A stretch of DNA of 9,197 bases, taken from Burkholderiaceae bacterium. GTDB lineage: Bacteria > Pseudomonadota > Gammaproteobacteria > Burkholderiales > Burkholderiaceae. Shown one piece after another: positions 1-9,138 of this stretch. The notes below the pieces were generated by a model that searched no databases, had not been told where the DNA came from, and saw only the letters and a program-made list of their open reading frames with translations. A program made the translations under genes and the position numbers. The stretch lies in assembly GCA_017997515.1 (NCBI GenBank), contig JAGOEY010000050.1:1-9197 (forward strand), in the 5' to 3' direction. Each line of letters begins with the position of its first letter. Position 1 is the stretch's first letter.

Positions 1-600
1 GCCAGCCGTGCAGCACAAACCGGCAACCGTGCAGAACTGGAGCGCATCAGCCAAGGGCTGAAACTGCAGCTGCAAACCATCCCCACCGCCAACACCGTGG
101 AGCAAACCGCCCAGACGCTGGGCCCCAAAACGCCGTCCATGCTGCTGTTCATTGGCGGCACACCCGAGCTTGCCCAGTTTTTGCAGGGCATCAAAAAACA
201 AGGCGGCCAGCGTTTTGTGGTGGCACTGGCCGACGTGAACCTGCAAACCCTGGCCCAGCTCGGCAGCATGGGCCGCAACGCGTCGGTGGTCGTGACCCAG
301 GCGGTGCCCATGGTGAATGCCGGTCTGCCCGTGGTGCGCGCCTACCGCGATGCGCTGGCCCGTTACTACGACGAAGCCCCCACCCCACTGGGCTTGGCGG
401 GCTTTATTGCCGCCCGCTACACCGCCCAGGTGCTGGCCAGCCTGGACACCGCCCCCACACGCCAAAACGTGCTGGCCGCCTTCCAGCGCCGCAACACCAT
501 GGACGTGGGTGGGTTCCAGGTGCAGTACGACAAAAACAGGCGCAGTGGCTACTTTGTCACACAAAGCATGCTGGCAAGTGATGGCCGGGTGGTCGGCTAG
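1..600 (+). CDS. ABC transporter substrate-binding protein, C-terminal part (5' truncated)
   Basis: This frame is open from the first base of the window to a TAG at 598-600, giving 199 residues of a protein whose start lies outside the window. The sequence resembles the C-terminal lobe of periplasmic binding proteins of the LivJ/LivK type (Peripla_BP_6 family). Recognisable features are a strand-rich stretch around LLFIGGTPELAQFLQGIKKQ, a helix containing the AGFIAARYTAQVL segment typical of the hinge-proximal region, and a C-terminus (GYFVTQSMLASDGRVVG) of a kind common in Burkholderiales members. Such proteins bind amino acids or other small organic ligands in the periplasm and deliver them to an inner-membrane ABC permease. 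No permease or ATPase gene follows, because the next gene is ppx. It may therefore be an orphan receptor, or its partners may lie upstream. The ligand cannot be told from this fragment. Confidence 0.85.
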   Translation, partial: ASRAAQTGNRAELERISQGLKLQLQTIPTANTVEQTAQTLGPKTPSMLLFIGGTPELAQFLQGIKKQGGQRFVVALADVNLQTLAQLGSMGRNASVVVTQAVPMVNAGLPVVRAYRDALARYYDEAPTPLGLAGFIAARYTAQVLASLDTAPTRQNVLAAFQRRNTMDVGGFQVQYDKNRRSGYFVTQSMLASDGRVVG

Positions 601-665
601 GCATGCGTATTGCTCTTGAATGCTATGCTGCGCCGCAAAATAACAAGCGCACACAAGCCCACACC

Positions 666-2144
666 ATGCACAACGGAACCCTCCTCGCCGCCCTTGATCT
701 GGGCTCCAACAGTTTTCGCCTGGAGATAGGTCGCCTGGAGCACGGGCAAATCCTGCGCACCGAATACCTCAAGGAAACCGTGCGCCAAGGCAGCGGCCTG
801 GACGCGGACCGCAACCTCACCCCCGCCGCCATGCAGCGCGGCTGGGACTGCCTGGCGCGGTTTGGCGAACGCCTGGCCGGCTTCACCCGCCCCCAGGTGC
901 GCGCCGTCGCCACCCAGACCCTGCGCGAAGCCCGCAACCGCGACGAATTCTTGAGCCGCGCCAGCGAGCTGCTCAACTTTCCCATCGACGTGGTGTCCGG
1001 CCCCGAAGAAGCCCGGCTGATCTACCAGGGCGTGTCACACCTGCTGCCGCAGTCCGACGAGCGCCGCCTGGTGGTGGACATCGGTGGGCGTTCCACCGAA
1101 ATGATCCTGGGCCAGCACTACAACGCCAACGTGGTCGCCTCGTACCGCGTGGGCAGCGTGGCCTGGTCGATGAAATATTTCCCCGACGGCCAGTTCACGC
1201 CCCAGGCCTTCCAGATCGCAGAAATTGCCGCCAAAGCCGTGCTGGACGAAGCGCTGGACACCTACCGGCGCGACGCCTGGGACGTGGCGTACGGTGCCTC
1301 CGGCACGGTAGGTGCCATTGGCGACATCCTGGCGGCCCTGGGCGAGACGCCCGGCACCATCACCCGTGGCGGGCTGGACCTGCTGCTGGACCGCCTGATC
1401 CGGGCCCAAAGCGCCGACCGCGTGCGCATGGAAGGCCTGAAGGAAGACCGCCGCGCCGTGATTGGCGGCGGCGTCAGCCTGCTGCGCGCCATCTTCGACC
1501 TGCTGCAAATCGACCGCATGGAAGTCGCCCAGGGCGCATTGCGCCAGGGTGTGTTGTACGACCTGCTCGACCGCGAGCAGCCCCAGACCGACATGCGGAT
1601 GTCCACCGTGCAGCTGCTGACACGCAAGTTCGGCATCGACACCGCGCAGGCCAACCGCGTGAGCGCGGTGGCCACCCAGCTGTATGCACACATTGCACCC
1701 GACCCCAACGAACGCACTGCCCGCAAGCTGGGCTGGGCCGGGCAGCTGCATGAGATTGGCTGCCAGATCTCCCACAGCGACCACCACCGCCACGGTGCCT
1801 ACATCCTGGGCAACACCGACGCGCCCGGCTTTGCCATGCCTGAACTGCAGTGGCTGTCCCAGATGGTGCTGGGCCACCGTGGCAAGCTGCGCAAGCTGGA
1901 AACCGACTTTGGCAACCGCCCTTTTGTGCTGCAGCTGATGTGCCTGCGCCTGGCCGTGGCCCTGTGCCATGCCCGGCGCGACCCCGACAGCGCCGCCATC
2001 AGCCTGGGCCTTGACGGCAACCGGCTGCTGCTGCAAACCCGCCCCGGCTGGGCCACCGCCTACCCGCAGTCGGCCCACCTGCTGAACGAGGAATCCATCG
2101 CCTGGCAACGCACCCCCTGGAGCCTGGAAGTCACGCTGAATTGA
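666..2144 (+). CDS. ppx: Exopolyphosphatase, Ppx/GppA family
   Basis: A 492-residue cytosolic enzyme of the sugar-kinase/Hsp70 fold that removes terminal phosphates from inorganic polyphosphate; GppA relatives also hydrolyse pppGpp. Visible motifs are the first phosphate loop DLGSNSFRLE (residues 11-20), the GPEEARLIYQG segment (112-122) with the catalytic glutamate, the second phosphate loop DIGGRSTE (138-145), and a C-terminal HD-like helical region containing LHEIG and a HxxHRHGAYIL-type stretch. The length matches E. coli Ppx (513) and GppA (494). The frame is open back to an ATG at 603, but conserved homology begins at residue 6 of the 666 start, so 666 is preferred. Neither start has a good Shine-Dalgarno sequence. 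Only a weak promoter-like match (TTGAAT at 616, A/T-rich AAAATAAC near 637) lies between the preceding stop and the start. Ppx is favoured over GppA because ppk1 lies nearby on the opposite strand, but GppA activity cannot be excluded. Confidence 0.93.
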   Translation: MHNGTLLAALDLGSNSFRLEIGRLEHGQILRTEYLKETVRQGSGLDADRNLTPAAMQRGWDCLARFGERLAGFTRPQVRAVATQTLREARNRDEFLSRASELLNFPIDVVSGPEEARLIYQGVSHLLPQSDERRLVVDIGGRSTEMILGQHYNANVVASYRVGSVAWSMKYFPDGQFTPQAFQIAEIAAKAVLDEALDTYRRDAWDVAYGASGTVGAIGDILAALGETPGTITRGGLDLLLDRLIRAQSADRVRMEGLKEDRRAVIGGGVSLLRAIFDLLQIDRMEVAQGALRQGVLYDLLDREQPQTDMRMSTVQLLTRKFGIDTAQANRVSAVATQLYAHIAPDPNERTARKLGWAGQLHEIGCQISHSDHHRHGAYILGNTDAPGFAMPELQWLSQMVLGHRGKLRKLETDFGNRPFVLQLMCLRLAVALCHARRDPDSAAISLGLDGNRLLLQTRPGWATAYPQSAHLLNEESIAWQRTPWSLEVTLN

Positions 2145-2218: not shown

Positions 2219-2767
2219 ATGACCACCACCCCCGCCCCTGTTTCCGCACCTGAAAAAGCCGCTGCGGCCCCCGCAGCCACACCCGTTGCAGCAGCAGCCG
2301 CTACACCCGCCAAAGCAGCCCCCGCCCCCAAAGCCGTGGTGGAAAAAGCAGCCGCCAAACTTGCCAAGGCTCCTGCAGCCGCAAAAGCCGCTGCAGCAAA
2401 ACCTGCCGCACCCGCCAAAAAAGCCGCCCCAAAAGTCGCAGCCAAGGCACCCCAAAAGGCTGCACCCCAAGTGGCTGCCAAAGAAGAAAAACCCAAGAAG
2501 CCCAAGCTGGTGCGCGACAGCTTCACCATTCCCAAGGCGGAATACCTGGTGCTGGACACGCTCAAAGAACGCGCCCTCAAGCTGTCACGCGAAGTGAAGA
2601 AGAGTGAGTTGCTGCGCGCCGGCATCAAGGCCCTGGCCGCGCTGTCCGACACCGCATTGCTGGCTGCACTGTCTGCCGTGCCCACCATCAAGACCGGACG
2701 CCCTGTGGCCGACAAGCCCGCCGCTCAGGACAAACCGGCCAAGAAGGTGCGCAGCACCAAGCGCTGA
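2219..2767 (+). CDS. Small basic protein: Ala/Lys/Pro-rich (H1-like) tail plus ribbon-helix-helix-like segment
   Basis: A 182-residue protein that I do not recognise as a named gene. Residues 1-95 are almost entirely Ala, Lys, Pro and Val in repeats of the AAAKPAAPAKKAA kind, as in bacterial histone-H1-like tails (AlgP, the PhaF tail, HctA-type proteins). Residues about 97-143 change character: a strand-like VRDSFTIPK, a helix AEYLVLDTLKERALKLS, a turn REVKK and a second helix SELLRAGIKALAAL. This order and spacing fit a ribbon-helix-helix DNA-binding fold. A short basic tail (158-182) follows. I infer a cytosolic, nucleoid-associated or regulatory DNA-binding protein. It begins 74 bases after ppx on the same strand, behind its own palindromic site. 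Disordered tails of this kind evolve fast, so relatives should be sought with residues 95-160. Alternatives are a polyphosphate- or PHA-granule-associated protein; nothing seen decides between them. Confidence 0.75.
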   Translation: MTTTPAPVSAPEKAAAAPAATPVAAAAATPAKAAPAPKAVVEKAAAKLAKAPAAAKAAAAKPAAPAKKAAPKVAAKAPQKAAPQVAAKEEKPKKPKLVRDSFTIPKAEYLVLDTLKERALKLSREVKKSELLRAGIKALAALSDTALLAALSAVPTIKTGRPVADKPAAQDKPAKKVRSTKR

Positions 2768-2910: not shown

Positions 2911-3375
2911 TTAAAGCACCTCGGGTGACTGCACCGTCACGATCACCGTCTGCGTCTCTTCCAGCCGCTGCCGCTGGCGCAGCCACCACACGGCGCCCTT
3001 GCGTACGGCGCATTCGGTTTCTTTGAGACCTACAAGATGGGCAATGGTCTGGCCCAGCATGGGCTGGTGGCCGATCACCAACACAGCCCCTTTGGCGCGC
3101 GGCCACTGCACCAGCTCCAGCAGCTCGGCCGGACTGCCGCCGGGCAGCAGCTCGGCGCGTAGTTTGTATTTACGCCCCAGCGCGATGGCGGTTTGTTCGG
3201 TGCGGCGCGCGGGGCTGCACAACACACGCACACCGTCGGGCAGCTGGCGGTCCAGCCAGGCGGCCATACGTGCGGCCTGTTTTTCACCGCGGGACGTCAG
3301 CGTGCGCTGCAGGTCTTCGCGGTCGTCGGCTTCGTCTTGGGCTTCGGCGTGGCGCCACAGAATCAGGTCCATCAT
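2911..3375 (-). CDS. sixA: Phosphohistidine phosphatase SixA
   Basis: A 154-residue member of the histidine phosphatase (phosphoglycerate-mutase-like) superfamily, close in length to E. coli SixA (161). It shows the N-terminal catalytic motif LILWRHAEA (Arg8, His9), the segment LTSRGEKQAARMAAWL, an Arg-bearing CSPARRTEQTA motif (residues 53-63) and the second catalytic histidine in VLVIGHQPMLG (His103). SixA enzymes remove phosphate from phosphohistidine, for example on the HPt domain of ArcB or on nitrogen-PTS proteins in E. coli. The start ATG (3375-3373) overlaps the TGA of ppk1 (3374-3372) in an ATGA arrangement, so translation is probably coupled. A second ATG follows immediately at 3372 and could serve instead. 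It is the last gene of the operon. The local substrate is unknown. Confidence 0.93.
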   Translation of the reverse strand: MMDLILWRHAEAQDEADDREDLQRTLTSRGEKQAARMAAWLDRQLPDGVRVLCSPARRTEQTAIALGRKYKLRAELLPGGSPAELLELVQWPRAKGAVLVIGHQPMLGQTIAHLVGLKETECAVRKGAVWWLRQRQRLEETQTVIVTVQSPEVL

Positions 3376-5606
3376 CGTGTGTCGTCCGTGTTGGGGGGCG
3401 GGTTTCGCCGTGTTTTGCCGTACCGCACCATCAGGGCGCCCTGCGCACCGTGGCCGCTGCCGTCCGCACTGGCGCGCACGTAACGTCCGTCGGCACCCAG
3501 GTTCCAGGCATCGCGGTCATCGTGCAGGTAGGCCACCAGGCATTCGTCGATCAGGCGCTGCCGCAGCACCGGGTCGGTCACTGGCCAGGCGGTTTCGACG
3601 CGGCGCATCATGTTGCGGTTCATCCAGTCGGCGCTGGACAGATACAGGTCTTCTTCGTCACCGCTGCGGAAGTAAAACACCCGGGAGTGCTCCAAAAACC
3701 GGCCGATGATCGAGCGCACGCGGATGTTGTCCGTCAGGCCCGGCACCTGCGCGGGCAACATACAGGCACCCCGCACAATCAGGTCGATCTTCACACCCCG
3801 CTGCCCGGCGTCCACCAGCGCCTGCACCAGCGCCATGTCGGTCAGTGCATTCATCTTGACGACGATGCGGCCCGGCACACCTGCGCTGGCAGCCCGGCCA
3901 ATGTGGGCAATTTTTTCGATGGTGCGTTTGTGCAGCTGGAACGGTGCCAGCCACAGATGGTGCAGGCGCGGCAGCTTGTTGTGGCTGGCCAGGTGGGCAA
4001 ACACGGCGTCCATGTCGGACGTCAAACCCGGGTCGGCCGTGAGGTGGCTGATGTCGGTATACAGCCTTGCGGTGCGCGGGTTGTAGTTGCCGGTGGACAG
4101 GTGCCCATAACGGCGCAAATAACGCCCTTCGCGCCGGGTGACGAGCAACATCTTGGCGTGGGTTTTGAGGCCCACCACGCCATACACCACCTGTGCACCG
4201 ACCGACTCCAGCGCCTCGGCCCAGTTGATGTTGGCCTCTTCGTCAAACCGTGCCTTCAGCTCCACCACGGCCGTGACTTCCTTGCCACGGCGCACGGCCT
4301 CACACAGCAGGTCCATCAGCTCCGAATCCGACCCGGTGCGGTAGATGGTTTGTTTGATGGCCAGCACCTGCGGGTCGTTGACCGCCTCGCGCAGAAAGGC
4401 CAGCACACCGTCAAAACTCTCGAACGGCTGGTGGATCAGGATGTCAGCCGTCTTCAGCTGCTCCATGATGGGCACGCCGGACTGCATCTGCAGCGGCCAG
4501 TGGGGCGTCCACGCCGGGAACAGAAGGGCCGGGTCGGCCACCAGATCGACCAGCTGCGTCAGCCGCACCAGATTGACGGGGCCATGCACGCGGTACAGCG
4601 CGGCGTCGGGCAAACCAAACTGGCGCTGCAAAAATTCGAGCAAAAACCCAGAGCACCCGGCCGACACTTCCAGCCGCACAGCCTGGCCATAGTGGCGCTG
4701 CTGCAGGCCTTGGCGCAAAGCAGTCCGCAGGTTGCGAACATCTTCTTCGTCCACGGCCAGGTCGGAGTGGCGCGTGACACGGAACTGCGAAAACTCGGTG
4801 ACTTCGCGGCCCGGAAACAGGTCACTCAGGTGCGCGCGGATGACGCTGGACAAGCTCACAAAGTTGCGCCCGTTCGGCGCGACCTTGTGTGGCACGGCGA
4901 TAAACCGCGGCAGCACCCGGGGCACCTTGACGATGGCGATTTCGTTGACGCGGCCAAACGCATCGGCCCCTTTCAGGCGCACGATGAAGTTGAGCGACTT
5001 GTTGGCCACCATCGGGAACGGGTGCGACGGGTCCAGCCCCACCGGAATCAGCAGCGGATGCACCTCGCGCGCAAAGTATTCACGCACCCATTTGCGCTGC
5101 GCTGGGTTGCGCTCGCCGTGCGACAGGATATGGATGCCTTTTTCTGCAAACGCCGGCATCAGGCCATCGTTGTACAGCGCGTACTGGCGCTCCACCAGCG
5201 CATGGGCCTTGGCCGCCAGCGCCTCGAAACTGGCCACGGTGTTGGTGCCCCGGGTTTCACCGGTCTGTGCAGCGGTGAGGTGTGGCGCGGCGCGTACTTC
5301 AAAAAACTCATCCAGATTGGACGAGACAATACACAGGTAACGCAGCCGCTCCAGCAGCGGCACTTCCGCGCGGTAGGCCCAGTCAAGCACCCGTTCGTTG
5401 AAGGACAGGATGCTGTGGTCGCGGTCCAGAAATGCCAAAACGGGGGGCGATGCGTGAGCTACCCCTCCCGCTGCAGCCGGAGGGGACAGCAAGGGTATGC
5501 CTGCGCTGGGGCGTGCCGGAACCGACGGCACCAAGGGGGATTCGTCCTGCGGGGATGGCATCGGAGAATGGGATTGGGAAAGCCCCACAGTATCCAGTTG
5601 TTTCAT
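3372..5606 (-). CDS. ppk1: Polyphosphate kinase 1
   Basis: A 744-residue enzyme that reversibly transfers the gamma phosphate of ATP to polyphosphate through an N-phosphohistidine intermediate. After the extension come the N-terminal domain motif ILSFNERVLDWAYRAEVPL (residues 66-84) with SSNLDEFFEVR (95-105), the phospholipase-D-like catalytic domain with KQTIYRTG (418-425) and VVELKARFDEEANI (447-460), the HxK motif KTHAK with the likely phosphorylated His483, STGNYNPRTARLYTD (504-518), the second HKD-like site FLEHSR with His640, and YLSSADWMNRN (655-665). All expected catalytic elements are present. The first 55 or so residues are a Ser/Pro/Ala-rich extension absent from E. coli PPK (688 residues). 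The frame is open far upstream, but the ATG at 5606 overlaps the preceding gene's stop as ATGA and is chosen; Met16 is an alternative. Confidence 0.97.
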   Translation of the reverse strand: MKQLDTVGLSQSHSPMPSPQDESPLVPSVPARPSAGIPLLSPPAAAGGVAHASPPVLAFLDRDHSILSFNERVLDWAYRAEVPLLERLRYLCIVSSNLDEFFEVRAAPHLTAAQTGETRGTNTVASFEALAAKAHALVERQYALYNDGLMPAFAEKGIHILSHGERNPAQRKWVREYFAREVHPLLIPVGLDPSHPFPMVANKSLNFIVRLKGADAFGRVNEIAIVKVPRVLPRFIAVPHKVAPNGRNFVSLSSVIRAHLSDLFPGREVTEFSQFRVTRHSDLAVDEEDVRNLRTALRQGLQQRHYGQAVRLEVSAGCSGFLLEFLQRQFGLPDAALYRVHGPVNLVRLTQLVDLVADPALLFPAWTPHWPLQMQSGVPIMEQLKTADILIHQPFESFDGVLAFLREAVNDPQVLAIKQTIYRTGSDSELMDLLCEAVRRGKEVTAVVELKARFDEEANINWAEALESVGAQVVYGVVGLKTHAKMLLVTRREGRYLRRYGHLSTGNYNPRTARLYTDISHLTADPGLTSDMDAVFAHLASHNKLPRLHHLWLAPFQLHKRTIEKIAHIGRAASAGVPGRIVVKMNALTDMALVQALVDAGQRGVKIDLIVRGACMLPAQVPGLTDNIRVRSIIGRFLEHSRVFYFRSGDEEDLYLSSADWMNRNMMRRVETAWPVTDPVLRQRLIDECLVAYLHDDRDAWNLGADGRYVRASADGSGHGAQGALMVRYGKTRRNPPPNTDDTR

Positions 5607-6682
5607 GACAGGCGTGTGACAGTCACATTTGCAGCCAGGGTTTTCCCCTGCATATCTTTGCGCGTGGGAACCAGGTGCCGCAGGAACTGTGTTGCGGACT
5701 CCGTCCAGCTGAAAGCCAGCGCACGGGCACGCGCCTCGTGGCGCGGCACCCGCATTGCGTTCATGCTGGCCTCGTGCAGGTCCACATCCAGCACACCGCC
5801 ACGCACACCACCTGCAGTTGCACCCAGCACCTCCAGCGGGCCATCCACCGGGTAAGCCGCCACAGGGGTGCCACAGGCCATGGCCTCCAGCATCACCAGC
5901 CCAAAGGTTTCCGACCGGCCCGGGAACACAAACACGTCGGCCGCTGCATACACACGCGCCAGGTCTTCGCGTGGCAGCAGCCCCAGCCAGCGGACATGGG
6001 GGTAGCGGCGCTTCAGCCCATCCTCCAGCGGCCCCGTGCCACACACCACCTTGGTGCCGGGCAGGTCCAGGTCCAGAAACGCGTCGATGTTTTTCTCGTA
6101 CGACACCCGCCCCACGTGTAACCACACCGGGTGCGCCAGCACGCCCAACTGGGGGCAGACGATGGCCTGGCCATGGAAGCTGAACAGCTGGGTGTCCACC
6201 CCGTGTGTCCAGCTGCGCAGCTTGCGGAACCCGCGCTTTTCCAGCATACGCAGCACCCCTTGGGTCGGCACCATCACCCCCGCAGACGGTCGGTGGAAGT
6301 GGCGGAACAACGCGTAACCCCAGGACAGGGGCAGCTTGCAGGCCGCGTGCAGGATCTCGGGAAACTTGGTGTGGAACGCCGTGGTGAACGCCATGTTGCG
6401 CCGCAGGCAATAACGCCGTGCGGCCCAGCCCAGCGGGCCTTCGGTGGCAATGTGGATGGCGTCGGGCTGCAGCGCGTCCAGCTGTGCGTTCAAGGCCCGC
6501 CGGGGGGACACCGCCAGCTCGATGCCTGCATAACCAGGGCATGGGCGGGTGCGGAAGAGCCGGGGGTGGATGACCTCCACCCGGTGGCCGGCCTGGGTCA
6601 GCTCGCGCACCAGCTCCACCAGCGTAGTCACCACCCCGTTGACCTGGGGTTGCCAGGCGTCGGTGATCAATGCGATCTTCAT
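5603..6682 (-). CDS. GT4-family glycosyltransferase, candidate diacylglycerol glycosyltransferase (Agt-like)
   Basis: A 359-residue GT-B fold enzyme of glycosyltransferase family 4. It has the N-terminal acceptor-domain loop WQPQVNGVVTTL (residues 10-21), a FHTKFPEI segment (103-110), the nucleotide-sugar site WLHVGRVSYEKNID (187-200; Arg192, Lys197), and the family EX7E motif ETFGLVMLE (Glu258 and Glu266) followed by AMACGTPVAAYPVDGPLEV. No membrane-spanning segment is evident, as expected for a peripheral enzyme. It directly follows the PlcP-like gene. In Agrobacterium and many marine bacteria the plcP neighbour is agt, which transfers glucose or glucuronate to diacylglycerol during phosphate starvation, and that is the favoured role here. 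The motifs also fit MgtA-like mannosyltransferases, and substrate cannot be read from sequence. Its start (ATG 6682-6680) overlaps the stop of the upstream gene as ATGA. Confidence 0.9.
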   Translation of the reverse strand: MKIALITDAWQPQVNGVVTTLVELVRELTQAGHRVEVIHPRLFRTRPCPGYAGIELAVSPRRALNAQLDALQPDAIHIATEGPLGWAARRYCLRRNMAFTTAFHTKFPEILHAACKLPLSWGYALFRHFHRPSAGVMVPTQGVLRMLEKRGFRKLRSWTHGVDTQLFSFHGQAIVCPQLGVLAHPVWLHVGRVSYEKNIDAFLDLDLPGTKVVCGTGPLEDGLKRRYPHVRWLGLLPREDLARVYAAADVFVFPGRSETFGLVMLEAMACGTPVAAYPVDGPLEVLGATAGGVRGGVLDVDLHEASMNAMRVPRHEARARALAFSWTESATQFLRHLVPTRKDMQGKTLAANVTVTRLS

Positions 6683-7563
6683 GCGGGCACCCCCACCGAC
6701 GCAACCGTCTTTTCGGGCAGCAGTGTGGACTGCGACGGTGCCCAGTGCACCAGCTCCAGCCGGCCATCGAAGTGCTCCACCAGCGCGGTGCAGCTTTCCA
6801 CCCAGTCCCCGTCATTGCAGTACAGCGTGCCGCCAATGTCACGTATCTCGGCGCGGTGGATGTGCCCACAGACGACGCCCTGGTACCCGCGCCGCCGTGC
6901 CTCGCTGGCCACGGCCACTTCAAAGTCGGTGACGTAGTTCACGGCCGTTTTCACCTTGCCTTTGAGGTAGGCCGAGAGTGACCAGTACGGCAGTCCCACC
7001 CGGGCGCGCAGGCTGTTGACGTGGCGGTTAAGCCGCAGGGTGAACTCGTACAGGTTGTCCCCCACATGGGCCAGCCATTTGGCGCACTGGATCACACCGT
7101 CGAAATAGTCGCCGTGGGTGACCCACAGGCGTCGCCCGTCGGCGGTGGTGTGGACGGCCTCTTCCACCACGTCGATGCCCCCAAACGAGTGGCCCAGAAA
7201 GCCGCGCGCAAATTCGTCGTGGTTGCCCGGCACAAACACCACACGGCAGCCCTTGCGTGCGCGGCGCAGCAGTTTTTGCACCACGTCGTTGTGGGCCTGC
7301 GGCCAGAACCACTTACGCCGCAGCTGCCAGCCGTCCACGATGTCGCCCACCAGGTACAGGTGGTCGCTGGGGTGCCGCTTCAGAAAATCGAGCAAAGCCA
7401 CGGCCTGGCAGCCGGGTGTGCCCAGGTGCAGGTCGGAAATAAAAATGCTGCGGTACCGCTGGCGCACGGGGCCGTCGTCACCGGCATCACTGGAATCACT
7501 TGCATCCATGGCAGCACCCCACATGCCGCCCTGGTGTCCTGGCATGTCGAAGGTGCTGCGCAT
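6679..7563 (-). CDS. plcP: Calcineurin-like metallophosphoesterase, PlcP-type phospholipase C (often annotated as LpxH-like)
   Basis: A 294-residue metallophosphoesterase with the full dinuclear-metal motif set: FISDLHLG (Asp44, His46), LVGDIVDGW (Asp74), VPGNHDE (Asn114, His115), VTHGDYFD (His150) and VCGHIHRAE (His234, His236). The stretches WPQAHNDVVQKLLRRARKG, GLPYWSLSAYLK, AVNYVTDFE and YCNDGDWVESCTALVEH match what I recall of Sinorhizobium PlcP and its relatives, which cleave phosphatidylethanolamine and phosphatidylcholine to diacylglycerol under phosphate limitation. Automated annotation usually labels this family UDP-2,3-diacylglucosamine diphosphatase. The neighbours (olsB before, GT4 after) favour lipid remodelling rather than lipid A synthesis. 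The start at 7563 shares one base with the olsB stop (TGATG). Met7, Met14 and Met19 are other in-frame starts, and the first 37 residues are poorly conserved in character. Confidence 0.85.
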   Translation of the reverse strand: MRSTFDMPGHQGGMWGAAMDASDSSDAGDDGPVRQRYRSIFISDLHLGTPGCQAVALLDFLKRHPSDHLYLVGDIVDGWQLRRKWFWPQAHNDVVQKLLRRARKGCRVVFVPGNHDEFARGFLGHSFGGIDVVEEAVHTTADGRRLWVTHGDYFDGVIQCAKWLAHVGDNLYEFTLRLNRHVNSLRARVGLPYWSLSAYLKGKVKTAVNYVTDFEVAVASEARRRGYQGVVCGHIHRAEIRDIGGTLYCNDGDWVESCTALVEHFDGRLELVHWAPSQSTLLPEKTVASVGVPA

Positions 7564-8414
7564 CACGCACCCAGGAAGTGTTTGCGGTAACGCGCGGGCA
7601 GGTCGGCAATCCGCATCATCATGGGCAGGTCGGCCGAGTTGAAGTCCGGGTCCCAGGCCGGTGCACCCAGCACTTTGGCACCCAGCCGCAGGTAGCCCTT
7701 GATGAGTGCTGGTGGCTCCACCCGTGTTGTGTGCAGCGGCTCGCGGTCCACCGGCAGCGGCAACCGGGGCCGCACGTGGTATTCGATCGGGGCCAGGTGG
7801 GTCTGGCGCAGCTGGTGCCAGATGCTGACGGCAGCGTCGCCGCTGGCCACACCGTTGTGCACCATCGGGATGCTGGCGCAGCCAATCATGGTGTCGAGCT
7901 GGTTGCGCACCATGAAGCCCGCCAGCGCGCCCCACAGCGCCATGATGACGCCGCCGTGGCGGTGGTCGGCATGTACACAGCTGCGGCCCAGCTCCACCAT
8001 CCGCGAGCGCAGGTGGCGCAGGCGGGTCAGGTCAAACTCGGTGTCGCTGTAGGTGCTGCCCACGCGTTTGGCCTGCGCGGGGGTGAGCACACGGTAGGTG
8101 CCAATCACCTGGCCCGAGGCCACGTCGCGCACCAGCAGGTGTTCACAGAAGTCGTCAAACAAATCAATGTCGTGGCCCGGCACGGTGTTGGGCAGCTGGG
8201 CACCCATTTCACCCGCAAACACCTGGTAACGCAGGCGCTGGGCCTGGCGCACTTCGTCCTGGTGCACGGCCCAGGACACGGCGATGCCGCTGGGCGCTGC
8301 CGCCGGAAGGATGGCGGCAGCCGGTTGGCTGGTGGGGCTGCTGTGGTCAGGGGAAAAAACAGGTGTGGCAGGGGCTGTTGTCTGCAAGCCGGTGCCGGAA
8401 ATGGGGGGGTGCAT
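7563..8414 (-). CDS. olsB: L-ornithine N(alpha)-acyltransferase OlsB (GNAT-like fold)
   Basis: A 283-residue protein of the OlsB family (also annotated as hemolysin-like GNAT acyltransferase). OlsB joins a 3-hydroxyacyl chain from acyl carrier protein to the alpha-amino group of ornithine, giving the phosphorus-free lyso-ornithine lipid at the inner membrane. Family hallmarks are AQRLRYQVFAGEMGA (residues 58-72), DIDLFDDFCEHLLVRD (82-97), GQVIGTYRVL (101-110), MVELGRSCVHADHRHG (139-154), MIGCASIP (176-183) and PALIKGYLRLGAKVLG (235-250). The first 43 residues are a Thr/Pro/Ala-rich extension. The frame is open to an ATG at 8471, but the ATG at 8414 has a strong ribosome binding site, and starting at 8471 would place part of the Pho-box-like repeats inside the gene. 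No OlsA partner (the O-acyltransferase that completes ornithine lipid) lies in this window. It is the first gene of the operon. Confidence 0.88.
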   Translation of the reverse strand: MHPPISGTGLQTTAPATPVFSPDHSSPTSQPAAAILPAAAPSGIAVSWAVHQDEVRQAQRLRYQVFAGEMGAQLPNTVPGHDIDLFDDFCEHLLVRDVASGQVIGTYRVLTPAQAKRVGSTYSDTEFDLTRLRHLRSRMVELGRSCVHADHRHGGVIMALWGALAGFMVRNQLDTMIGCASIPMVHNGVASGDAAVSIWHQLRQTHLAPIEYHVRPRLPLPVDREPLHTTRVEPPALIKGYLRLGAKVLGAPAWDPDFNSADLPMMMRIADLPARYRKHFLGA

Positions 8415-8424: not shown

Positions 8425-8461
8425 AGGGGCGTTTTGTTCCTGGCAAGTCTCCCTGCAGGCC

Positions 8462-8501
8462 ATGACGCCACCGTGTCAGTCGCGTGGCGCTTTGATGACA
8501 G
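8462..8501 (-). promoter_or_regulatory. Tandem Pho-box-like repeats upstream of olsB
   Basis: On the minus strand four heptamers stand at an exact 11-base period: CTGTCAT (8501-8495), GCGCCAC (8490-8484), CTGACAC (8479-8473) and GCGTCAT (8468-8462). Against the E. coli PhoB half-site CTGTCAT they match at 7, 3, 5 and 5 of 7 positions; GCGCCAC ends in the C that the consensus tolerates. The 7+4 arrangement is that of classical Pho boxes, although only the first spacer is A/T-rich. The cluster ends 47 bases before the olsB start. I find no convincing -10 box below it. Confidence 0.6.
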
Positions 8502-8607: not shown

Positions 8608-9138
8608 TCAGGCCAAGGCACGCGCAGACACCACGATGCCATCGGCGTCGGCGTACAACCAGTCACCGGGGCGCACCCACACCCCCTGGATCTGCACCGC
8701 CACATCACGCTGGCCTTCGTTGCGTTTTTCCGTCGGCAGCGGCATGCTGGCCAACGCGCGAATCCCCGTCTGGTGCCCGGCGAGCTCGGCCACATCCCGC
8801 ACCGCACCGTTCACCAGCACACCCGCCCAGCCGTTACGCGCGGCGGCAGCCCCCAGATTGCCGCCCAGCAGCGCCCGTCGCAGCGATGCGCCACCGTCCA
8901 CCACCAGCACACGCCCGACGCGGCCCGTGGGGGTGTCGTCAAAGCCGGGCGAATCAACCGCCGCCTTGACCAGCGAGTTGTCTTCAAAACACTTGATGGT
9001 GGTCACCGGGCCGCAAAACTTGAGCACCGCACCAAAGTCGCGGAACACGGGTGGCAGCACACGGAAGTCGCCTGAGCTGTCGTTCTTGTAGGCATCACAG
9101 AAGTCGCAGGTGCTGAAATCGGGGCGGGCAGAAGTCAT
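8608..9138 (-). CDS. rraA: RraA-family protein (RNase E regulator or HMG/CHA aldolase-like)
   Basis: A 176-residue protein of the RraA/class II HMG aldolase superfamily (E. coli RraA has 161 residues). Typical segments are TIKCFEDNSLVKAAVD (residues 47-62), GRVLVVDGGASLRRALLGGNLG (75-96), GWAGVLVNGAVRDVAEL (103-119), GIRALASMPLPTEKRNEG (125-142) and a C-terminal PGDWLYADADGIVVS. E. coli RraA binds RNase E and inhibits mRNA decay; related proteins are divalent-metal 4-hydroxy-4-methyl-2-oxoglutarate aldolases. The Arg114-Asp115 pair of the aldolase motif is present where E. coli RraA has Arg-Gln, but the partner Asp of the D-X20-R-D motif seems replaced by Gly93, so the activity is undecided. 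The start at 9138 has AAGG eight bases upstream. It is separated from the olsB operon by 193 bases and is probably transcribed independently. Confidence 0.9.
   Translation of the reverse strand: MTSARPDFSTCDFCDAYKNDSSGDFRVLPPVFRDFGAVLKFCGPVTTIKCFEDNSLVKAAVDSPGFDDTPTGRVGRVLVVDGGASLRRALLGGNLGAAAARNGWAGVLVNGAVRDVAELAGHQTGIRALASMPLPTEKRNEGQRDVAVQIQGVWVRPGDWLYADADGIVVSARALA

Follow-up and report, generated by a model that had tools for sequence, protein, structure and literature searches.

Predicted two-promoter PhoB control of a lipid-substitution and polyphosphate gene cluster recurrent in Comamonadaceae

Five abutting minus-strand genes, olsB, plcP, a GT4 glycosyltransferase gene, ppk1 and sixA, occupy positions 8414-2911 of the window, a 9,197-nt stretch of DNA from a Burkholderiaceae bacterium (contig JAGOEY010000050.1, assembly GCA_017997515.1). 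They very likely constitute a PhoB-controlled phosphorus-economy locus with two predicted promoters, of which P1 lies before olsB and P2 in the end of the GT4 gene. The gap-free order of the genes, already proposed in the initial annotation, is borne out by their coordinates, their junctions and their Pfam and NCBIfam matches; the Pfam domains of the five products are, in turn, Acetyltransf_5, Metallophos, GT4 domains, all four PP_kinase domains and His_Phos_1. The window Ppk1 groups among Comamonadaceae in a tree of 91 rows and is 79% identical to that of Acidovorax kalamii, which points to kinship with this family, common in freshwater, soil and wastewater. The genes and the predicted promoter elements are as follows.

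7563..8414, minus strand: olsB-like N-acyltransferase gene (283 aa, PF13444; GGAG at 8424-8421 upstream of the ATG)
6679..7563, minus strand: plcP-like metallophosphoesterase gene (294 aa)
5603..6682, minus strand: GT4 glycosyltransferase gene, predicted to be Agt-like (359 aa)
3372..5606, minus strand: ppk1, polyphosphate kinase 1 (744 aa in the frame from ATG 5606)
2911..3375, minus strand: sixA-like histidine phosphatase gene (154 aa)
8462..8501, minus strand: P1, predicted, four PhoB half-sites at an 11-bp pitch, CTGTCATcaaaGCGCCACgcgaCTGACACggtgGCGTCAT
8446..8451, minus strand: P1, predicted -10 hexamer gagact, 10 nt 3' of the array; putative transcription start at about 8439
5605..5622, minus strand: P2, predicted Pho box CTGTCACACGCCTGTCAT from the scan of the window, overlapping the GT4 stop codon
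5589..5594, minus strand: P2, predicted -10 hexamer gatact, 10 nt 3' of the Pho box; putative transcription start at about 5582

Adjacent genes overlap at the olsB/plcP junction (TGATG, 7565-7561), the plcP/GT4 junction (ATGA, 6682-6679) and the ppk1/sixA junction (ATGA, 3375-3372). A further ATGA overlap is possible between GT4 and ppk1 (5606-5603), exactly where the predicted PhoB promoter P2 sits. When read from P2, ppk1 probably starts at the in-frame ATG 5561, because the putative transcription start at about 5582 lies downstream of ATG 5606.

The neighbourhood recurs among relatives. Searching named genomes for proteins closely related to PlcP yielded 80 loci, selected by similarity to the window protein, and 68 of these have room on both sides: the complete olsB-plcP-GT4-ppk1-sixA run is present in 38 and the same run without GT4 in nine, with olsB before plcP in 60 and ppk1 after plcP in 50. 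Because the 80 loci were similarity-selected, an independent draw of 100 genomes was made from the family of Acidovorax radicis (G002), in which plcP is present in 72, ppk1 in 93 and olsB in 81. On the same strand, olsB lies at most 5 kb before ppk1 in 40 of the 76 family genomes with both genes, plcP lies at most 5 kb before ppk1 in 36 of 68, and olsB lies at most 1 kb before plcP in 30 of 67; linkage in this draw is lower than in the PlcP-selected loci, yet still high. Of the 100 genomes, 22 have the full olsB-plcP-(GT4)-ppk1 run, 16 have olsB immediately in front of ppk1 without an intervening plcP, and 14 have plcP, with no olsB ahead of it, in front of ppk1; G217, scored as having plcP-GT4-ppk1 but no olsB, is cut off by the end of its contig. 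The cassette is therefore modular, in that olsB alone, plcP alone or plcP-GT4 can stand before ppk1. A neighbourhood search of this kind had been suggested in the initial annotation, together with the coupling of the lipid genes to olsB and ppk1/sixA, and both the coupling and the full run prove to be recurrent.

At the level of the order, plcP was found in 70 of 150 genomes and lies within 5 kb of ppk1 in eight of the 70, G002 included (judged by eye). Coupling of lipid genes to ppk1 is common in the family and rare in the wider Burkholderiales. Other gene orders also occur, such as ppk1-plcP-GT4 with ppx, olsB and sixA nearby (L117, L120). Locus L119 (G162) holds ppx, phoX, olsB, plcP, an MGDG_synth-family gene, sixA, ppk1, a pstS-like gene and phoR, with the set from phoX to phoR within 12 kb (3404-15083); here the MGDG_synth-family gene takes the place of GT4 after olsB-plcP. 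Replacement of GT4 by an MGDG synthase was rejected as a general rule, such a gene standing beside plcP in only one of 13 PF06925 genomes (compared by eye). In L120, a gene for a PhoD-like phosphatase and an NDP-sugar dehydratase/epimerase-family gene (13827-15404 and 4032-5162) lie beside ppk1-plcP-GT4. In loci without GT4 or ppk1, no common theme emerged from ten genes located downstream of plcP or close to it.

Predicted PhoB sites are concentrated before two of the five genes. Scanning the window with what we take to be the Pho-box consensus gave two sites scoring above 19.5, one before olsB and the other, P2, overlapping the GT4 stop codon; the P2 box is the best site of the window, and none of 200 window shuffles reached its score. 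Among the relatives, a box scoring at least 22 precedes ppk1 in 30 of 57 loci, against 1/570 shuffles and 8/570 random windows of the same loci, which may themselves overlap real Pho boxes. A box scoring at least 20 precedes olsB in 23 of 65 loci, against 13/650 shuffles and 31/650 random windows. Boxes scoring at least 22 were absent from the regions before plcP (0/79), GT4 (0/56) and sixA (0/55). Arrays of four half-sites scoring above the 99% shuffle level precede olsB in 48 of 65 regions and ppk1 in 35 of 57, as against 1/56 for GT4 and 0/55 for sixA. The enrichment before olsB and ppk1 is consistent with the phosphate-starvation setting that the initial annotation had proposed.

A -10 element is also predicted at a fixed distance from these arrays. 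In each of 109 leading-gene regions, the best array was chosen and the bases downstream were read without further choice, the regions being split by half-site score. A at +12 and T at +16 after the array were found together in all 69 regions over the array threshold (window included), in 16 of the 18 just under it and in two of the 22 far under it (18/40 in total), and the average match to TATAAT is highest at offset 11 (3.19, against a shuffle maximum of 1.72). The same two bases follow the arrays in 46 of the 54 ppk1 regions that pass the threshold and in 15 of the 36 that do not, with the TATAAT peak again at offset 11 (3.63, against a shuffle maximum of 2.20). The 10-nt spacing between box and -10 element matches that which we take to be characteristic of PhoB-activated promoters.

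Regulation would appear to track gene position, because the four-half-site array precedes plcP where plcP leads (11 of 13) and not where it stands behind olsB (0 of 5); where olsB is directly before ppk1, the olsB array is present in 13 of 14. The ppk1 gene seems often to keep a separate switch. That its box is a by-product of GT4 codons was ruled out, since ppk1 boxes are also present where no GT4 precedes the gene (L146, L147, L148, L157, L164 and L024). Two tandem predicted PhoB promoters would fit the window better than one. A single-promoter operon, the simplest layout, was rejected because of P2, and the single transcript for all five genes that the initial annotation envisaged gives way to an arrangement in which a separate PhoB promoter, predicted within the terminal part of GT4, would serve ppk1.

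The metallophosphoesterase is, judging from its sequence, PlcP-like and not LpxH, in agreement with the identity first assigned to it. The opposite view, that it is LpxH and that the neighbouring glycosyltransferase acts in lipid A or exopolysaccharide synthesis, draws on the LpxH name carried by the named PlcP-like proteins (among the best 120 of 8000 proteins) and on the fact that the solved relatives by sequence are LpxH only. The protein nonetheless scores well below both NCBIfam LpxH cut-offs (45.5 bits against 134 for NF003743 and 36.7 against 190.35 for TIGR01854). Moreover, among the 21 genomes behind named loci in which LpxH was sought, a separate protein matches the LpxH model at 179-213 bits in 19/19 genomes that we take, from their names, to be Comamonadaceae, with 13 over the cut-off of 190; a second, weak LpxH match in 13 of the 19 was confirmed to be at the plcP locus for G002 and G009 only. 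No strong LpxH match was found in the other two genomes, both Nitrosomonas (L067, L078). These two carry olsB-plcP-GT4 (L067) and plcP-GT4 (L078), and ppk1 was not found nearby. The PlcP-like protein belongs to the calcineurin-like fold, keeps seven metal ligands (D44, H46, D74, N114, H150, H234 and H236), assigned from what we take to be the ligand positions of LpxH, and has GNHD where the aligned solved LpxH sequences have GNRD. The pairing of plcP with GT4 also reaches far beyond the family: of the 30 best order-level loci (drawn from the 70 plcP genomes), 19 have the two genes side by side, as do seven of 20 class-level regions (of 58), where the glycosyltransferase is 45-51% identical to an aligned GT4 sequence. 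On the model scores, the separate LpxH and the GNHD motif, a role as LpxH in lipid A or exopolysaccharide synthesis was ruled out as a candidate and is extremely improbable; the LpxH name on the PlcP-like proteins is probably a misannotation, PlcP being more likely. The plcP-GT4 pair of the window would then correspond to the known plcP-agt pair, and the GT4 enzyme, which the initial annotation had called Agt-like, is predicted to glycosylate diacylglycerol. Its AlphaFold model, of modest confidence (mean pLDDT 68.5), matches generic GT4 enzymes and so does not point to a particular acceptor.

The remaining assignments vary in strength. Ppk1 passes TIGR03705 with 869 bits against a cut-off of 465.85. 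The histidine phosphatase is filed as SixA-like, TIGR00249 being its best model (65.4 against 74.5 bits), and the N-acyltransferase as OlsB-like only, its best matches being OlsB models at 157.2 against 350 and 144.1 against 320 bits. The short names of those models, RHOCB and BRUA, suggest that they are narrow. The low score against the nearest OlsB model and the presence of other acyltransferases in the superfamily would be compatible with an enzyme that makes an aminolipid other than ornithine lipid; this is unlikely in view of the OlsB models being the best matches and of the OlsA-like proteins encoded elsewhere. OlsA itself is absent from the cluster, and each of the 3/3 genomes looked at has one PlsC-like candidate elsewhere with OlsA as its best model (125-151 bits, below the cut-off of 300).

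A working scheme for the PhoB-controlled locus would run as follows. When phosphate is exhausted, phospho-PhoB would bind the four half-sites of P1 and switch on olsB-plcP-GT4, and would bind the two-half-site box of P2 and switch on ppk1-sixA, to whose expression read-through from P1 may add. OlsB, together with OlsA encoded elsewhere, would make ornithine lipid, while PlcP would cut phospholipid to diacylglycerol for GT4 to convert to glycosyl-diacylglycerol, so that the three enzymes would replace phospholipid by ornithine lipid and glycosyl-diacylglycerol. Ppk1 made during starvation might allow phosphate to be stored as soon as it returns (overplus), or might keep polyphosphate turning over. 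Joint starvation control of this kind is likelier than a routing of membrane phosphorus into polyphosphate.

Such routing would be the core of a different account, in which one five-gene transcript passes phosphorus freed from the membrane straight into polyphosphate. The overlapping starts and stops and the full run in 22/100 family genomes favour it, whereas the prediction of an internal promoter, P2, complete with a -10 element, the retention of a ppk1 box where plcP and GT4 are not directly before the gene (L024, L164) and the reported yield of diacylglycerol from PlcP speak against it, as does the opposition between storing and sparing phosphate in starvation; on balance this account is improbable. 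Still less probable is that the neighbourhood reflects inherited synteny without functional meaning. Gene-set labels are indeed grouped on the Ppk1 tree (28 changes, shuffled labels giving 46.3; near-complete Ppk1 rows, without L062, which contains stops, and with labels set by automatic thresholds, a few of them imprecise, e.g. L041, L120 and L122). Against this, the make-up of the stretch in front of ppk1 shifts repeatedly (at least 7 label changes for olsB, 12 for plcP and 20 for GT4), these genes are grouped in a different order in certain other Burkholderiales (L115-L120), and the predicted PhoB array follows the leading gene.

Several observations weigh against the two-promoter PhoB reading preferred here. 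Linkage is missing from plcP to ppk1 in 32/68 and from olsB to ppk1 in 36/76 family genomes, in part owing to contig ends. At the level of individual promoters, 27/57 ppk1 regions fall below a Pho-box score of 22 and 17/65 olsB regions fail the four-half-site test; the plain two-half-site test is passed by only 6/13 plcP regions where plcP leads and by 4/8 where it stands alone. Where olsB is directly before ppk1, ppk1 has its own box in only 7/14. The plcP-led promoters mostly do not have A at the third conserved -10 position (0.10). The loci are related, so that the counts are not independent and overstate the evidence, although most of the adjacent positions are variable within those rows. 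The OlsB-like and SixA-like proteins score below the NCBIfam cut-offs, and in Pseudomonas putida BIRD-1 Ppk and Ppx are listed as not PhoBR-regulated in the accessible part of the study in question (PMC5082522).

Many parts of the locus have counterparts in known systems, namely plcP-agt under Pho boxes, Pho boxes before olsB, and PhoBR-dependent PlcP and OlsAB. Operons of plcP and agt are described for Pseudomonas aeruginosa (PA3219-PA3218), marine bacteria and methanotrophs (PMC8528852, PMC4796936, PMC9239053); as in the window, plcP directly precedes the glycosyltransferase gene with a Pho box in front (PMC8528852, PMC4796936), and a Pho-box consensus is also given in PMC8528852. In the window, by contrast, the gene run is headed by olsB and continues into ppk1-sixA, which have a second predicted Pho promoter, and neither feature is reported in the portions of those papers that were available. 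In Burkholderia sensu lato, predicted Pho boxes precede olsB in 21/43 genomes, in a context called conserved (data not shown; PMC7814305). The two cases share a betaproteobacterial OlsB homologue and a Pho box predicted for its gene, though neither plcP nor ppk1 is named in the text available from that source. PlcP and OlsAB of P. putida BIRD-1 depend on PhoBR, according to the part accessible (PMC5082522). PlcP of Phaeobacter MED193 responds to phosphate stress, and the same table, as far as available, lists PPK2, as opposed to the PPK1 of the window (PMC10132767). The nearest precedent found for a lipid-polyphosphate cluster is a flexible phosphate island of the marine alphaproteobacterium HIMB59, one version of which groups ppk, a SixA phosphohistidine phosphatase and ppx near pst, phoRB, the glycosyltransferase gene RfaG and a gene called LpxH (PMC10734472). 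The accessible text of that study does not mention olsB or plcP and reads LpxH and RfaG as lipid A and polysaccharide genes; the pair may instead be PlcP and Agt. No description of an olsB-plcP-GT4-ppk1-sixA unit was found in the open-access literature, subscription papers lying mostly outside the search, which is in keeping with the earlier impression that the arrangement had not been described as a unit. What appears to be new is that olsB and plcP-GT4 are repeatedly linked to ppk1-sixA in Comamonadaceae, with two tandem predicted promoters.

Two further genes lie on the opposite strand of the window.

603..2144, plus strand: ppx, exopolyphosphatase/GppA family, convergent with ppk1-sixA
2219..2767, plus strand: gene located between ppx and sixA, whose Lys/Ala/Pro-rich product has a conserved core

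The Lys/Ala/Pro-rich protein is present in 36 of the 44 loci with sixA and convergent ppx (the protein of L058 was not extracted into the set of 36) and has the conserved core KPKLVRDSFTIPK...KKSELLRAG...KTGRP. It has no Pfam or NCBIfam match, and its named relatives, among the matches listed, are mostly hypothetical and once histone H1-like. AlgP, a polyphosphate-granule protein of P. aeruginosa, is likewise Lys/Ala/Pro-rich and histone H1-like, and is itself tied to polyphosphate, according to the available part of PMC9239181; the window protein has its own core and is likened to AlgP by composition and description. A broader scheme would make the locus an integrated module with two PhoB promoters, combining lipid exchange, polyphosphate synthesis, a SixA phosphohistidine reset and granules held on the nucleoid by the histone-like protein, with membrane phosphorus feeding a working polyphosphate pool during starvation and not only after phosphate returns; this extension is doubtful. 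At the margins of the window, the cut 3' end of a periplasmic-binding-protein gene (1-600, plus strand) lies directly before ppx, and an rraA-like gene (8608-9138, minus strand) lies upstream of olsB, with an AT-rich palindrome, AGCTAT...ATAGCT, between it and P1. The 80 relative loci gave no match to the rraA-like gene at E 1e-8 and above 60 bits.

If the two-promoter PhoB reading is correct, lipid substitution and polyphosphate synthesis, usually studied apart, would be wired to the same sensor through two promoters in Comamonadaceae. Public LpxH names, perhaps including those in the HIMB59 islands, would be flagged as more probably denoting PlcP. It would then become possible to ask why bacteria short of phosphate should make a polyphosphate kinase, and whether phosphorus from the membrane ends up in polyphosphate.

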